Notes under the pieces: model-generated
Database searches by the model: none
Told to the model about the DNA's origin: nothing
Seen by the model: only the letters and a program-made list of their open reading frames with translations
Translations under genes and position numbers: made by a program
Part shown: in pieces, positions 10,097 to 55,947 of the stretch
Numbering within the stretch: position 1 is the stretch's first letter
Layout of the letters: each line of letters opens with the position of its first letter
NCBI RefSeq assembly: GCF_963457605.1
Contig: NZ_OY735139.1
Span: forward strand, 372,001 to 436,000
DNA: 64,000 nucleotides
Origin: an uncultured Gellertiella sp.
Lineage (GTDB): Bacteria > Pseudomonadota > Alphaproteobacteria > Rhizobiales > Rhizobiaceae
Direction: 5' to 3'

Positions 10097-10265
10097 CTAG
10101 AGTCTGTCAGGCTCATATTGAACCAGCCAGACTCTGGCTCCCCTTGTTGTCGTTTGTGTTTTCGGGAAAACCGGATTCCACTTTTCCCTGACAAACTCTA
10201 ATTCTCTTTGTTTTCGTTTGTCTTTTCGGGAAAACCGGATTCCACTTTTCCCTGACAAACTCTAG
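10097..10265. repeat. Palindromic mosaic repeat element A (modules m4-m3-m3)
   Basis: Starts and ends with CTAG. 10097-10137 is module m4, an imperfect hairpin. It is followed by two tandem copies of the 60-bp module m3 (about 10142-10200 and 10206-10265). The two m3 copies differ at only a few positions near their left ends. Each m3 holds inverted arms GTTTGTC...GGGAAAA / TTTTCCC...GACAAAC. The ends match the shared terminal sequence CTAGAGTYTGTCAGG seen in the other elements of this window. No coding capacity. This element is part of the 415-bp gene-free stretch 10055-10469. Confidence 0.9.
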
Positions 10266-19488: not shown

Positions 19489-21645
19489 TTACTTGGCTTT
19501 GCCGTGGGGCCGGATCAGGGCGGTGACGCGGCGGATGGTGACGCGGCGGTTCTGCTGTTCCGGACCGGCGGTGCGGATCTTCAGGTACCGCTCGCCATAG
19601 CCCTGGGTGGTCAGGTTTTCCGGCGGAATACCATAGACATCGGTGAGCAGTTGCGCGACCGAGGAAGCCCGCTTGTCCGACAGGACCAGGTTCGACTGGT
19701 CGGAGCCGACGGCATCCGTATGGCCTTCGATCAGGAAGGTTTCGCCCGGATCGCGCTTCAGCACCTTCAGCATCGCATCGGCCACCTTGCGCAGCGTCTT
19801 TGCCTGGGTCAGCGGCACTTCGGCACTGCCGGTCGCAAAGGTGATCGTATCGAGATCGATACGGCGCACCTTGTCGCGGATACGGGCGGAATACTTGACC
19901 TCGTCGATCGAATAGACCCGCTCGACCCGTTCCACCGGCGGCTTTTCGAGGAAGGTGTAATAGTCCTCGCGCGGTGCCTGCGAGCTGGAGATGATGTAAT
20001 CATCGACCGGCACCGTCAGGCGCATCGGCGGCAGGTCGTAGCCGGCGTCATAGATCTGGCGCTGTTTCTGCGTGTCGGCTTCCGGCGCATAGATCATCAC
20101 ATATTCGTCGCCATCGCTCGACACCCGGCTGCGCTGGATGATGTCGCCATAGGGATTGTAGATCGTGACGATCCGGGTGCCGTTGGGGCGCACGATGGTT
20201 TCCCTCGTCCGGCCCCGCGACAGGTTTTCGTAGAAGCTGTTGTCGCTGTCCTGGCGCAGGCGCGGACGGTCGTCGGAGCGCACCACGATCTGGTTGCCGA
20301 CATTCAGCACCGTGCTGTTGTCGATCTGCTTGACGACCGTGACCTGCTTGACCTCGGTGACATTGGTCACCACCGTGTTGTTGGTCACGGTATTGTTGGT
20401 GACGGTGTTGCTGACATTGTTGTTCACCGTGTTGTTGGTGACATTGTTCGTCACATTGGTGACGCCGGGAACCGCAAAGACCGGGGCCTCGGAGACCTTC
20501 TTGCCCTTTTCCTCGATGGCTGCGTTCAGCGTCTTCTGCTCGACCACAGGCAGGGCGGCCTGGGCGTCGGCATCGCTCTTCGGTGCGGGTGCGGGTCTTT
20601 CCTGCTCGCGGGCCTTGGTGCGGGTGTCGCGGGCAGCCTGACCACCTGTCGTATCGGCGTCCTTGTCACTGTCGAGAACGGCAGCGCCATTGTCGACCGG
20701 CAGAACCACCGTATCCGCCGTCTTGGCCGGATCCCTGGCGATTTCGGTCTTCTGTTCGGAGGTCTGGGTATCCTGGATGGCCGGGACCGGAGCCTCGGCA
20801 GCCGCAGGGGCGTCAGGCTGTGCCGGTGCTTCGGCCTTTGGCTGCGCCGCATCGGACGCTGCGGGCGTTTCGGCGGGTGCTTCGGCAGGGGCAGCCGGAG
20901 TTTCGGCAGGCGTTTCAGCAGGTGCCGCTGGCTGTTCATCTGGCGCAGCAGGCTGTTCAGCCGGAGCCGCCGGCTCTTCCGCAGGCGCTGCCGGTTCTTC
21001 GGCAGGGGCAGCAGGCTGTTCAGCCGGAGCCGCAGGCTCTTCCGCAGGTGCTGCCGGTTCTTCAGCAGGCGCTGCCGGTTCTTCAGCAGCCGGTTCTTCA
21101 GCAGGCGCAGCCGGTTCTTCAGCAGGCGCAGCCGGTTCTTCAGCAGGCGCTGCCGGTTCTTCAGCCGGAGCCGCTGGCTCTTCCCCAGGCGCAGCCGGTT
21201 CTTCAGCCGGAGCCGCTGGCTCTTCCGCCGGTGCTGCCGGTTCTTCGGCAGGTGGCGCAGGCTGTTCGGCTGGTGCTGCCGGTTCTTCCGCCGGTGCCGC
21301 AGGCTCTTCTGCCGGAGCAGAAGGCTCTTCTGCGGGCGGCGCGGGTTCTTCGGCGGGTGGCGCAGGCTGTTCGGCAGGGGCGGCGGGTTCTTCTGCCGGT
21401 GCGGGAGGCTGCTCGGCAGGTGCTGCGGGCTGTTCGGCAGCGGGCGCCTGGTCCTGCTGCTTGCCCTGCTGCAAGAGTTGCTGTTCTTCCGGGCTCAGCT
21501 GTCCATCGCCATCAAGGTCGCCCTCGAGCGCCTGGGCAACCAGCAAGCTGCCGCCATGGCTGGCAGCCAGCGCCGGTGTCACCACGAGTGACATGGAGAG
21601 CACCGGCAGCGCCGCCGTGGCGAATAATCTTGAACGAAGCGTCAT
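19489..21645 (-). CDS. OmpA family outer-membrane protein with long Pro/Ala/Glu repeat region
   Basis: A protein of 718 residues. After a signal peptide (ending near 'TPALA') comes an EF-hand-like loop 'DLDGDGQLSPEEQ' that could bind calcium. Then follows about 200 residues of degenerate 'PAAPAEE' heptads, a Val/Asn/Thr-rich stretch ('TNNTVTNNTVVTN', about 390-430), and a C-terminal OmpA domain (about 610-715, 'IEGHTDAVGSDQSNLVLSDKR') that binds peptidoglycan. The low-complexity part probably spans the periplasm as a stalk. The start 'MTLRSRLFATAALPV' at 21645 has GAGGA upstream; an in-frame ATG 27 bases earlier is less likely. An EcfG-like promoter lies about 150 bp upstream. Confidence 0.88.
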   Translation of the reverse strand: MTLRSRLFATAALPVLSMSLVVTPALAASHGGSLLVAQALEGDLDGDGQLSPEEQQLLQQGKQQDQAPAAEQPAAPAEQPPAPAEEPAAPAEQPAPPAEEPAPPAEEPSAPAEEPAAPAEEPAAPAEQPAPPAEEPAAPAEEPAAPAEEPAAPGEEPAAPAEEPAAPAEEPAAPAEEPAAPAEEPAAEEPAAPAEEPAAPAEEPAAPAEQPAAPAEEPAAPAEEPAAPAEQPAAPDEQPAAPAETPAETPAAPAEAPAETPAASDAAQPKAEAPAQPDAPAAAEAPVPAIQDTQTSEQKTEIARDPAKTADTVVLPVDNGAAVLDSDKDADTTGGQAARDTRTKAREQERPAPAPKSDADAQAALPVVEQKTLNAAIEEKGKKVSEAPVFAVPGVTNVTNNVTNNTVNNNVSNTVTNNTVTNNTVVTNVTEVKQVTVVKQIDNSTVLNVGNQIVVRSDDRPRLRQDSDNSFYENLSRGRTRETIVRPNGTRIVTIYNPYGDIIQRSRVSSDGDEYVMIYAPEADTQKQRQIYDAGYDLPPMRLTVPVDDYIISSSQAPREDYYTFLEKPPVERVERVYSIDEVKYSARIRDKVRRIDLDTITFATGSAEVPLTQAKTLRKVADAMLKVLKRDPGETFLIEGHTDAVGSDQSNLVLSDKRASSVAQLLTDVYGIPPENLTTQGYGERYLKIRTAGPEQQNRRVTIRRVTALIRPHGKAK
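20860..21450. repeat. In-frame 21-bp tandem repeats inside the OmpA-family gene
   Basis: Roughly 590 bp of degenerate repeats with a 21-base unit encode 'PAAPAEE' and variants such as 'PAPPAEE', 'PAAPAEQ' and 'PAETPAE'. The unit is a multiple of three, so copy number changes would keep the frame. Most variation is at synonymous sites, which suggests amplification followed by drift. Confidence 0.85.
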
Positions 21646-26656: not shown

Positions 26657-27526
26657 ATGGCGAACGTGGCTTTCATTGGTCTTGGGGTGATGGGATACCC
26701 GATGGCCGCCCATCTGAAGAACAAGGGCGGCCACGACGTCACCGTCTATAACCGCACCACCGCCAAGGCCGAAGCCTGGGTGGCCGCACACGGCGGTCGC
26801 CATGCCCTTACCCCGGCGGAGGCGGCAAGGGGTGCCGATTTCGTCTTCACCATGGTCGGCAATGACGATGACCTGCGCTCCGTGACGCTCGGGCCGAACG
26901 GCGTGCTCGCAGGCATGGCAAAGGGCGCAATCCTGATCGACAACACCACCGCCAGCGCCGAGGTCGCCCGCGAACTCGAAGCGGCCGCTGCTGAAGAGGG
27001 CATCGGTTTCATCGATGCACCGGTTTCCGGCGGACAGGCCGGGGCCGAGAACGGCGTTCTCACCGTGATGTGCGGCGGCGCTGCGGCAACCTTCGAAAAA
27101 GCCCGCCCCGTCATCGACGCCTATGCCCGCATGGTCGGGTTGATGGGTCCGGCAGGGGCCGGACAGCTGACCAAGATGGTCAACCAGATCTGCATCGCCG
27201 GTCTCGTCCAGGGTCTTGCCGAAGGTATCCATTTCGGCAAGCGCGCCGGGCTCGACATCGAGAAGGTGATCGAGGTGATTTCCAAGGGCGCTGCCGGCTC
27301 CTGGCAGATGGAAAACCGCCACAAGACCATGAATGTCGGCAAATATGATTTCGGCTTTGCCATCGACTGGATGCGCAAGGATCTCGGCATCGTTCTCTCC
27401 GAGGCCCGCCAGAACGGCGCGAAACTGCCGGTGACCGCGCTTGTCGACCAGTTCTATGGCGATGTGCAGGCGATGGGCGGCAATCGCTGGGATACGTCCT
27501 CGCTGCTGGCGCGTCTGGAAAAATGA
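26657..27526 (+). CDS. NAD(P)-dependent oxidoreductase, 3-hydroxyisobutyrate dehydrogenase family
   Basis: 289 residues. The Rossmann start 'NVAFIGLGVMGYPMAAHLKNKG' is the beta-hydroxyacid dehydrogenase signature; 'IDAPVSGGQAGAENG' carries the substrate-binding Ser/Gly pair and 'GQLTKMVNQ' the catalytic Lys. The C-terminal helical domain ends 'GNRWDTSSLLARLEK'. Members oxidise 3-hydroxyisobutyrate or reduce tartronate semialdehyde or succinic semialdehyde; sequence alone does not decide. GAGGAG precedes the ATG at 26657. The stop overlaps the start of the DNA alkylation repair gene (ATGA), an odd functional pair that may only share transcription. Confidence 0.9.
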   Translation: MANVAFIGLGVMGYPMAAHLKNKGGHDVTVYNRTTAKAEAWVAAHGGRHALTPAEAARGADFVFTMVGNDDDLRSVTLGPNGVLAGMAKGAILIDNTTASAEVARELEAAAAEEGIGFIDAPVSGGQAGAENGVLTVMCGGAAATFEKARPVIDAYARMVGLMGPAGAGQLTKMVNQICIAGLVQGLAEGIHFGKRAGLDIEKVIEVISKGAAGSWQMENRHKTMNVGKYDFGFAIDWMRKDLGIVLSEARQNGAKLPVTALVDQFYGDVQAMGGNRWDTSSLLARLEK

Positions 27527-28209
27527 GCCTGACGCCGTCGTCCTGCGCCGAAGAGCTGGTCGCCCATCTCAAGGCCATCGGCACGGCGGAAAACATCGCG
27601 GGCATGGCCCGGTTCGGCATCGTCACCGACCGGGCGCTCGGCATTTCCAACACCGCATTGCGCGCCATCGCCCGGTCCGTCAGGCGCGACCATTCCCGCG
27701 CCCTCCTCCTCTGGCAGAGCGGCATCCGCGAGGCCCGGTTGCTGGCAGCCTTTACGGAAGAGCCCGGCCTGATCACCCCCGATCAGGCCCGCGCCTGTGC
27801 GGCGAGCTTCAACTCCTGGGAAATGGTCGACGGCTGGGCCGATCTGTTTGCAACGGCCGGACTTGGCCCGCTGCTGATCCCGGAATTTGCCGGCGATGAC
27901 CGCGAATTCGTCCGGCGTACCGCCTTTGCGATGATCGCCTGGTCCGCCGTGCATCTGAAAAAGGAACCCGACAGTACCCTCCTCGCCTTCCTGCCGCTGA
28001 TCGAGGCCCATGCAACAGACCCGCGCAATTTCGTCCGCAAGGCGGTCAACTGGGCGCTCCGCCAGATCGGCAAGCGCAGCCCCGCCTGCCACGGCCCGGC
28101 GCTGGCGCTCGCCCGAAAACTCGCCGAAAGCCCGGACAAAACCGCCCGCTGGAACGGCCGCGACGCCGTCAGGGAGCTGTCGAAGGTGCAGGACAAACGG
28201 GCAATCTAG
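27523..28209 (+). CDS. DNA alkylation repair protein (AlkD/HEAT-repeat family)
   Basis: A 228-residue all-helical protein of the AlkD-like family. AlkD glycosylases remove positively charged alkylated bases without flipping them. The conserved patterns are 'RFGIVTDRALGISNTALRAIAR' near the N-terminus, 'FNSWEMVDGWAD' and 'RNFVRKAVNWALRQIGKRS' near the C-terminus (DNA-contacting residues). It overlaps the preceding dehydrogenase by four bases. Its TAG stop lies in the CTAG that begins repeat element B, so the element sits immediately at the 3' end of the gene. Confidence 0.9.
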   Translation: MSLTPSSCAEELVAHLKAIGTAENIAGMARFGIVTDRALGISNTALRAIARSVRRDHSRALLLWQSGIREARLLAAFTEEPGLITPDQARACAASFNSWEMVDGWADLFATAGLGPLLIPEFAGDDREFVRRTAFAMIAWSAVHLKKEPDSTLLAFLPLIEAHATDPRNFVRKAVNWALRQIGKRSPACHGPALALARKLAESPDKTARWNGRDAVRELSKVQDKRAI

Positions 28210-28310
28210 AGTCTGTCAGGTTCATACTGAACCTGACAGACTCTATTACTCTTTGTTTTCGTTTGTCTTTTCGGGAAAACCGGATTCCACTTTTCCCTGA
28301 CAAACTCTAG
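28206..28310. repeat. Palindromic repeat element B (modules m4-m3), MITE-like
   Basis: A compact 105-bp member of the family. It begins CTAGAGTCTGTCAGG and ends CCTGACAAACTCTAG, terminal inverted repeats with two mismatches over 15 bases. The left half (m4) is a perfect 17-bp hairpin with a 3-base loop; the right half (28251-28310) is the 60-bp m3 module. It supplies or overlaps the stop codon of the AlkD-like gene and lies about 80 bp upstream of the nucleotidyltransferase pair. Confidence 0.92.
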
Positions 28311-44732: not shown

Positions 44733-45038
44733 CTAGTGGTTTGATTCCGACATTTGCTACCGTCCGCTTTACCCTCGAGAGCAAAAGTCGGAATCATCAA
44801 AATCATTAGTAACACTATGATTCTAGTGGAATTTACGAATTTGACATTCGACCCTCGAGATCGCTGCGAACGGGCTTCGAATGTCAAATTCATTCCACTA
44901 GAGTTTGTCAGGGAAAAGTGGAATCCGGTTTTCCCGCTCAAACTCGTTTGAGCGCTCAAACTCGTTTGAGCGAAAAGACAAACGAAAACAAATTTGCTTG
45001 GAGTCTGTCAGGTTCTATCTGAACCTGACAGACTCTAG
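44733..45038. repeat. Palindromic mosaic repeat element C (modules m1-m2-m3-m4)
   Basis: A 306-bp composite in the 517-bp gap 44646-45162. m1 (44733 to about 44798) is a long imperfect hairpin starting CTAGTGGTTTGATTCCGAC; a TAACACTATGATT spacer follows; m2 (44823-44901) is 79 bp with CTAG at both ends; m3 (44898-44993, inverted relative to elements A and B) carries a 36-bp insert; m4 (about 45000-45038) is a near-perfect hairpin ending CTAG. All modules recur in element D at 55.7-55.9 kb in another order. No gene can be supported in the gap. Confidence 0.92.
44936..44971. repeat. Two tandem 18-bp palindromes inside element C
   Basis: GCTCAAACTCGTTTGAGC occurs twice in direct tandem. Each unit is a palindrome with 8-bp arms around TC. 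It splits module m3 between CCC and GAAAAGAC, which are adjacent in the other m3 copies. Confidence 0.9.
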
Positions 45039-55677: not shown

Positions 55678-55947
55678 CTAGTGGAATGAATTTGACATTC
55701 GATACCCATTCGCCGCGATCTCGAGGATCGAATGTCAAATTCGCAAATTCCACCAGAGTCTGTCAGGTTCTAATTGAACCAGACAGACTCTGGTGCCCTT
55801 TGTTTTCGTTTGTCTTTTCGGGAAAACCGGATTCCACTTTTCCCTGACAAACTCTAGAATCATAGTGTTACTAGTGGTTTTCATGATTCCGACATTTGCT
55901 CTCGAGGGTAAAGCGGACGGTAGCAAATGTCGGAATCAAACCACTAG
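55678..55947. repeat. Palindromic mosaic repeat element D (modules m2-m4-m3-m1)
   Basis: A 270-bp composite from CTAG to CTAG. m2 is 55678-55756 (79 bp), m4 55753-55793, m3 55798-55857, an AATCATAGTGTTA spacer, then m1 55871-55947, a full palindrome (CTAGTGG...CCACTAG). Read on the minus strand the order is m1-spacer-m3-m4-m2; element C on its plus strand is m1-spacer-m2-m3-m4. So D is an inverted, rearranged relative of C. Confidence 0.92.

Follow-up and report, generated by a model that had tools for sequence, protein, structure and literature searches.

The window analysed here, the whole stretch of 64,000 nucleotides at C2:372001-436000 of a genome of 4,165,720 bases in two contigs, holds four intergenic spacers rich in hairpins, which raises the question of what these spacers are made of and what has moved them. 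The original prediction described a mosaic family in which the same four palindromic modules (m1 to m4) are freely combined. The coordinates, the hairpins, the shared ends and the near-identical copies of m3 are all present where it had placed them. The free combination is not, because m1 with m2 and m3 with m4 are fixed pairs, and shuffling of four independent modules was rejected. Judged by their sequence, two non-coding mini-transposons make up all four spacers: A, of 163 bp, with m1 and m2, and B, of about 99 bp, with m3 and m4. The order of the modules differs between spacers because B has been inserted into CTAG sites of A, and it is this insertion that gives the mosaic look. The insertion point lies between m1 and m2 in the spacer at 55678-55947 and at the edge of m2 in that at 44733-45038 (e3 below), while 10097-10265 (e1) consists of one B and a partial second B, and 28206-28310 (e2) of one B. 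The features are, in window coordinates:

10100-10198, minus strand: B in the order m4-m3, with TA at either end (CTA / TAA)
10201-10262, minus strand: incomplete second B in tandem, of which m3 alone is present, followed by TAG
28209-28307, minus strand: single complete B in a CTAG target
44736-44898, plus strand: complete A (m1, spacer, m2), flanks CTA / TAG
44901-45035, plus strand: B abutting A through a shared CTAG, with two 18-bp palindromes within
44921-44925, plus strand: GAATC (GANTC) box, bases 21-25 of the left end of B, the same position as in the left ends of the insertion sequence (IS)
44936-44971, plus strand: 18-bp palindrome GCTCAAACTCGTTTGAGC, twice in tandem within m3
55681-55944, minus strand: A interrupted by B (264 bp)
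55756-55854, minus strand: B inserted into A at its inner CTAG, separating m1 from m2; one flank is TA, the other CA (degenerate TA)

Composition of elements A and B

Element A is made of m1, a spacer near AACACTATGATTC and m2. The table of its copies has 20 rows, from which one inner duplicate match and one match without a partner end were set aside; the remaining 18 copies have both ends, and 15 of them measure 162-164 bp, two 264 bp and one 82 bp. The longer form corresponds to 163 + 99 + 2, that is, to an A carrying a B, and the 82-bp copy is an internal deletion. At 8 of the 10 loci L270-L279, which come from this genome and nine others, the spacer of A holds a GANTC site, so that A too has a site of the CcrM type.

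Element B is made of m3 and m4 and covers about 99 bp between its TAs, with the terminal repeats GAGTYTGTCAGG. The m3 core CTTTGTTTTCGTTTGTCTTTTC has 116 matches in the genome at up to two mismatches, the places of about 100 being known from the matches listed, and the reversed control gave 0. It is clear that m3 is repeated far beyond chance. The orientation of the cores across the genome is unequal, with 41 forward and 75 reverse. With a looser m3 pattern, 113 m3-bearing copies of B were delimited in 405,725 bases of the genome. Being short, non-coding, multicopy (116 cores) and bounded by terminal inverted repeats (TIRs), B has the properties of a MITE. Both elements fold into two hairpins and a linker, with raw folding energies of about -74 kcal/mol for A and -45 kcal/mol for B, and no match to either was obtained in Rfam at the gathering threshold.

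The length of B varies with an optional insert, the 18-bp palindrome, which reads GCTCAAAC..GTTTGAGC or GCGCAAAC..GTTTGCGC and is present 0-2 times per B according to the counting pattern, and three times by eye at C2:655210. A longer m3 arm is found in 14 of the 113 copies. Paired changes from GCTC/GAGC to GCGC/GCGC were seen in the palindrome within B, and at locus L016 partial palindromes akin to it flank a B. Perhaps the palindrome forms another unit of its own, mobile or structural. Its two copies at 44936-44971 are absent from the original prediction.

The open reading frame at 27523-28209, upstream of the B at 28209, has its TAG stop supplied by the CTAG of the inserted B; by eye, its product is DNA-alkylation-repair-like. 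Elsewhere in the window, a cobalamin riboswitch lies at 2095-2319 on the minus strand, and 20830-21465 contains repeats with a period of 21 bases, possibly within a coding stretch.

The resident IS630-family element

A search with PF13358 (DDE_3) found 11 places in the genome. At five of these stand almost identical copies of one IS, 1049 bp long and with the ends GAGTCTGTCAGT...ACTGACAGACTC. This IS has the characters of the IS630 family, namely a DDE_3 domain scoring over the curated cut-off, TIRs and a duplicated TA, which lies in YTAR in all five copies (C-TA-G four times and T-TA-A once). A programmed frameshift between two overlapping open reading frames is common in this family; in the IS two frames overlap, and the run of A where they meet would be no more than a candidate site for such a shift. 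Three of the five copies lie within A or B repeats or directly beside them.

The flanks of B were scored at both ends in 88 full-length copies, and 73 have TA on both sides. Among these clean copies, 66 of the 73 stand in YTAR context (Y-TA..TA-R), against 74 of the 923 TA sites counted over the whole window, coding parts included. At C2:1367236, where A carries B, intact A reads GTGTTACTAGTGG and the filled copy reads GTGTCACTA-[B]-TAGTGG, with TA duplicated. The TA duplication of an IS630-type MITE is therefore found for B both in its flanks and between filled and empty A sites.

B also has its ends in common with this IS of the same genome. The first 11 bp are the same, except that the left end of B has GAGTT where the IS has GAGTC. 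Further inwards the likeness rests on 16 bases (12-27) and several comparisons were made: the left end of B agrees with the left end of the IS at 11/16 (permutation 0.00025) and with its right end at 6/16, and the right end of B of the TTTGCTT type agrees with the right end of the IS at 11/16 (permutation 0.00056) and with its left end at 10/16. For the right ends of B, the left end of the resident IS (10/16) is almost as close as its right end (10-11/16). Right ends of the GGGAATT type, compared with seven relatives of the IS, agree with the right ends at 10-13/16 and with the left ends at 5-7/16. The box at bases 21-25 reads GAATC in the left ends of both B and the IS, GAACC in 87 of the 91 scored right ends of B, and GAAGC, GAACC or GAAAC in the right ends of close ISs.

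Given that a resident IS has the ends and the target of B, B can be placed among the IS630-type MITEs, and it is likely, from these sequence matches, that it is moved in trans by the 1049-bp IS. B as a simple internal deletion of the IS was rejected, since only about 25 bp at each end are alike. The expectation of a mover encoded elsewhere thus holds for B, through an IS630-family IS with matching ends in five copies, but not for A and its CTAGTGG ends: no resident IS bounded by the end pattern of A was found, the 41 genome places of this pattern being 40 whole or partial copies of A and one stray match with two mismatches.

The nearest named relatives of the IS, at 82-84% identity, are from Agrobacterium vitis, Pararhizobium, Rhizobium, Neorhizobium and Xaviernesmea. 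In 398 Pseudomonadota genomes (E<=1e-25), 30 have a match to the transposase, including the genome itself; 29 of these are the genome itself or belong to the same family, order or class, and one shares only the phylum (35% identity). In the family sample, B shows no association with a close IS, defined by a match to the transposase at E<=1e-60: such an IS is present in 3 of the 17 other genomes with B (G103, G171 and G178), with about 3.4 expected by chance.

A second resident type of IS630, with the ends TAAAGCATGTC, is found at L126, L127, L133, L134 and L135 (C2:1558709, 1768429, 589810, 1163788 and 3381232), and L134 has GATTC at bases 21-25 of its left end. A TAAAGCATGTC sequence also abuts a B at C2:2722157, and perhaps represents a third family of MITEs.

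GANTC sites in the ends and their possible control by CcrM

The box at bases 21-25 was followed through the relatives of the IS. Regions with a transposase were gathered from named genomes, plasmids and further genomes (171 loci), and the ends were placed from the similarity of the TIRs, the flanking TA and the distance from the transposase, no base beyond 14 being used. Both ends were found at 117 of the loci, which form 69 clusters by shared 12-mers, with 47-100% protein identity to the resident IS. GANTC occupies bases 21-25 of the left, transposase-side, end in 67 of the 69 clusters and of the right end in 0 of 69, counts that overstate independence because the clusters share ancestry (L189 and L190, for example, have the same left 45 bp). 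The variable base is A in 54 clusters, G in 7, T in 4 and C in 2. A putative methylation site is conserved in the end and presumed promoter region. The information content of the left end is 1.89-2.0 bits in columns 21, 22, 24 and 25, 0.98 in column 23 and at most 0.75 in columns 5-20. The misses are both at base 21, in L313 (Acetobacter) and in the cluster representative L235, whose sister copies L237 and L245 keep GANTC and L238 lacks it. On the protein tree, the states of the box, loss included, need 9 changes.

The 69 ISs contain 219 GANTC sites, with 252 expected from composition, and 192 of these are found in bases 1-100, 11 in bases 101-1000 and 16 beyond. A site between bases 46 and 75 is present in 60 of the 69 clusters, and the resident IS has GANTC at 1, 21, 32, 55 and 1045, with a likely start codon near base 91. 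Of the loci where the ends were not located, 39 were testable; two or more GANTC sites precede the transposase in 26 of them but not in the other 13. The first 100 bp in five distant relatives (31-44% protein identity) from outside the Alphaproteobacteria, namely from a cyanobacterium, a bacteroidete, a betaproteobacterium, a gammaproteobacterium and Deinococcus, contained no GANTC, these being best-guess elements of which some ends are uncertain. L233, on a contig binned as Acidobacteriaceae, groups with the alphaproteobacterial ISs and has GANTC at 21; its placement is either a binning error or a transfer.

In B, the left-end GANTC is present in 105 of 108 copies of this genome. The B-like elements of other genera have GANTC at this end in 10 of 37 and GNNNC in 35 of 37, which means that B can spread without GANTC, and the retention in this genome may reflect just one recent burst. 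The window as a whole is poor in GANTC (89 found and 221 expected), as would fit a host with CcrM.

We consider it rather probable that these observations are joined by a single explanation, in which A and B are mini-transposons, B nested in A, and B would be moved by an IS630-family IS timed by CcrM-methylated GANTC. The transposase would bind the ends of B through the common terminal bases and the box at 21-25 (GNNNC in B and in the right ends of the IS). From the left end to the start codon of the transposase gene, CcrM would hold the GANTC sites in the methylated state, and replication would leave them hemimethylated for a short time. During that time the transposase could be expressed or the left end used, in the way that Dam controls IS10. 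Given that B would need only the binding box, it may keep or lose the methylation site.

The alternative that survives best, although we find it doubtful, is that GANTC at 21-25 is only a transposase-binding box or a promoter motif, and that it resembles the CcrM site by coincidence. A GNNNC box does occur at both ends, given that G21 is found in 66 and C25 in 63 of the 69 right ends and that the left ends of B in other genera mostly have it. Such a box, however, requires only G and C, whereas the left end, and it alone, has a near-invariant A22 and T24 around a position 23 that takes all four letters. The left end adds A and T with any N between them, which points to a methylase site rather than a fixed binding word. 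A binding box would also leave aside the additional GANTC sites in the first 100 bp, including those between bases 46 and 75, in elements whose bodies are almost without them. As to a promoter motif, a -35 box TTGACA was rejected because bases 19-20 are variable, so that it is not the conserved feature. GANTC is for these sequences more likely a control carried by the own end of the transposase gene, and by analogy with the Dam control of IS10 we infer a cell-cycle gating of the jumps of the IS by CcrM. A hairpin between the first and the second GANTC was also considered and rejected, since complementary changes in the second site were seen in 0 of 8 cases, which argues against it.

Such control is documented for IS10/Tn10, and also for IS50 and IS903, in which adenine-methylation sites for Dam in the end and in the transposase promoter couple jumping to replication, according to the available parts of PMC5371812, PMC9296519 and PMC5390034. 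In IS10, hemimethylation after the fork permits both transposase binding and transposase transcription, and maize Ac/Ds has a methylation control at one end (both in the available part of PMC5371812). The resident IS differs from IS10 in having GANTC and CcrM instead of GATC and Dam and in belonging to the IS630 family, and it is known here from sequence alone. GcrA is described as binding methylated GANTC in promoters (PMC7987155, in part). Known counterparts of the resident IS within the IS630 family are ISRm2011-2 and ISRel6. Their transposases share 57% and 60% identity with that of the resident IS in the part compared, and they have lengths of 1053 and 1047 bp, a TA target and GAATC at bases 21-25 of the left end; the termini of this group are GAGCGG, against GAGTCTGTCAG in the resident IS.

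A MITE with an IS630 partner is of a known kind, that of RUP, and GANTC in alphaproteobacterial repeats is known from CIR. RUP of Streptococcus pneumoniae was proposed as a MITE of the IS630 type, with IS630-Spn1, and resembles B in being a non-coding element of about 107 bp with about 110 copies, TIRs like those of a resident IS630, a TA target and clusters or nests with other repeats; B differs in that its hairpin arms are two distinct ones and in the palindromic inserts that some copies carry, and a methylation motif is not mentioned for RUP in the available parts of PMC2229807 and PMC3049150. CIR (CcrM-associated intergenic repeats), found in Caulobacter and other Alphaproteobacteria, are about 110 bp long with two arms and a linker, TA termini and GANTC in or at the terminal loop, in the excerpts of the review PMC2229807, which leave their mobility and the functional role of GANTC undetermined. 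B agrees with this partial description in GANTC, two arms, about 110 bp and TA termini, and its predicted fold likewise puts GANTC in or at a terminal loop. B differs in that an IS carrying GANTC in the corresponding position is proposed as its partner, CIR1-4 being compared by description only. Among rhizobial repeats, RIME1 is about 108 bp long with two palindromes. RIME, the Rhizobium-specific intergenic mosaic elements, which are mentioned in the available part of PMC2573895, are like B rhizobial intergenic repeats, likened by description only. In Brucella, the palindromic Bru-RS repeats (103-105 bp) are landing sites of an IS, as A and B are, and IS711 has a YTAR target and TA duplication like the resident IS, again compared by description only (PMC2266754 and PMC2267715, in part).

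In the limited collection of literature searched, no earlier description of a fixed GANTC in IS630 ends was found. In PMC9296519, where both GANTC and IS630 are present, the available text discusses Dam and IS4/IS5 elements and not GANTC in IS630 ends. What is new is a candidate reason for GANTC in alphaproteobacterial intergenic repeats, which may have inherited it from the methylation-controlled end of a parent IS630. If this is true, CcrM, the cell-cycle methylase, would control transposition in an alphaproteobacterial group of ISs as Dam does for IS10, and the gating can be tested with single-base changes. A wider reading, for and against which we see equal weight, is that a whole alphaproteobacterial branch of IS630 is gated by CcrM, through methylation of GANTC at base 21 of one end and of additional sites ahead of the transposase gene, and switched on only after the fork, in one daughter, and that B, and perhaps CIR and RIME, would be its MITEs, some without the switch.

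Empty sites and distribution

The original prediction would have been contradicted by modules confined to the four spacers or always kept in one order at orthologous sites of relatives. The elements are found genome-wide, and e1, e2 and e3 are absent from three congeners. In the 3 of 3 congeners with a syntenic stretch (59-69 kb), the flanks align and the sites of all three are empty, and the intergenic region of e3 is without the element in 4 of 4 congeners. BLAST of the elements against the three syntenic stretches gave no match, and the few short motif matches in these stretches lie away from the element sites. Old vertical inheritance was rejected for e1-e3 on account of these empty orthologous sites.

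In a sample of 199 genomes of the family, this genome included, A-like elements (E<=1e-6), many over the full 167 bases, are present in 33 and B (E<=1e-10) in 18; the best four or fewer B or A candidates were scored per genome, so copy counts in the family are not usable. It could be argued from this spread, and from the strong two-arm folds, that A and B are old intergenic regulatory hairpins of RNA or DNA, vertically inherited and not currently mobile. We consider this very improbable, given that the orthologous sites of congeners are empty, that TA is duplicated, that B is inserted into A and the IS into or beside A and B, and that neither of the two congeners in the family sample has a match to B or A under the thresholds applied, among the four or fewer candidates scored in each. 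The elements are better explained as mini-transposons.

The copies of B are placed mostly between genes. According to a home-made gene finder, 50 of the 113 lie between convergent genes, 45 between tandem and 5 between divergent genes, with 5 inside predicted open reading frames and 8 at the edge of a stretch. The 45 gene junctions of the window are 9 convergent, 26 tandem and 10 divergent, and Fisher tests, which leave out the 13 copies in open reading frames or at edges, give p = 0.0009 for the convergent excess and 0.003 for the divergent deficit. The scarcity of B between divergent genes is the one hint of a possible effect of the hairpins on transcripts, as expected in the original prediction. 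Palindromic, mostly intergenic units in many copies, chiefly between convergent or tandem genes, would also be expected if a REP-associated tyrosine transposase (RAYT) had moved units of the REP/BIME type, but this has a negligible probability, because TIRs and TA duplications bound the units, which match an IS with a DDE transposase (PF13358), and RAYT units, to our knowledge, leave no target duplication. Of the earlier description as MITE- or REP-like units, the MITE part is retained, by TIRs and TA duplications, and the REP/RAYT ancestry is not supported, the matching enzyme being a DDE transposase.

B is also found in 26 plasmid records, mostly of Agrobacterium, Shinella, Rhizobium and Martelella. 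Two records of Roseateles sp. XES5, NZ_CP084753.1 and NZ_CP084754.1, which carry a betaproteobacterial label and the mark UNVERIFIED_ORG, have 19 and 17 matches to B, and this strain is perhaps a mislabelled member of the Rhizobiaceae.
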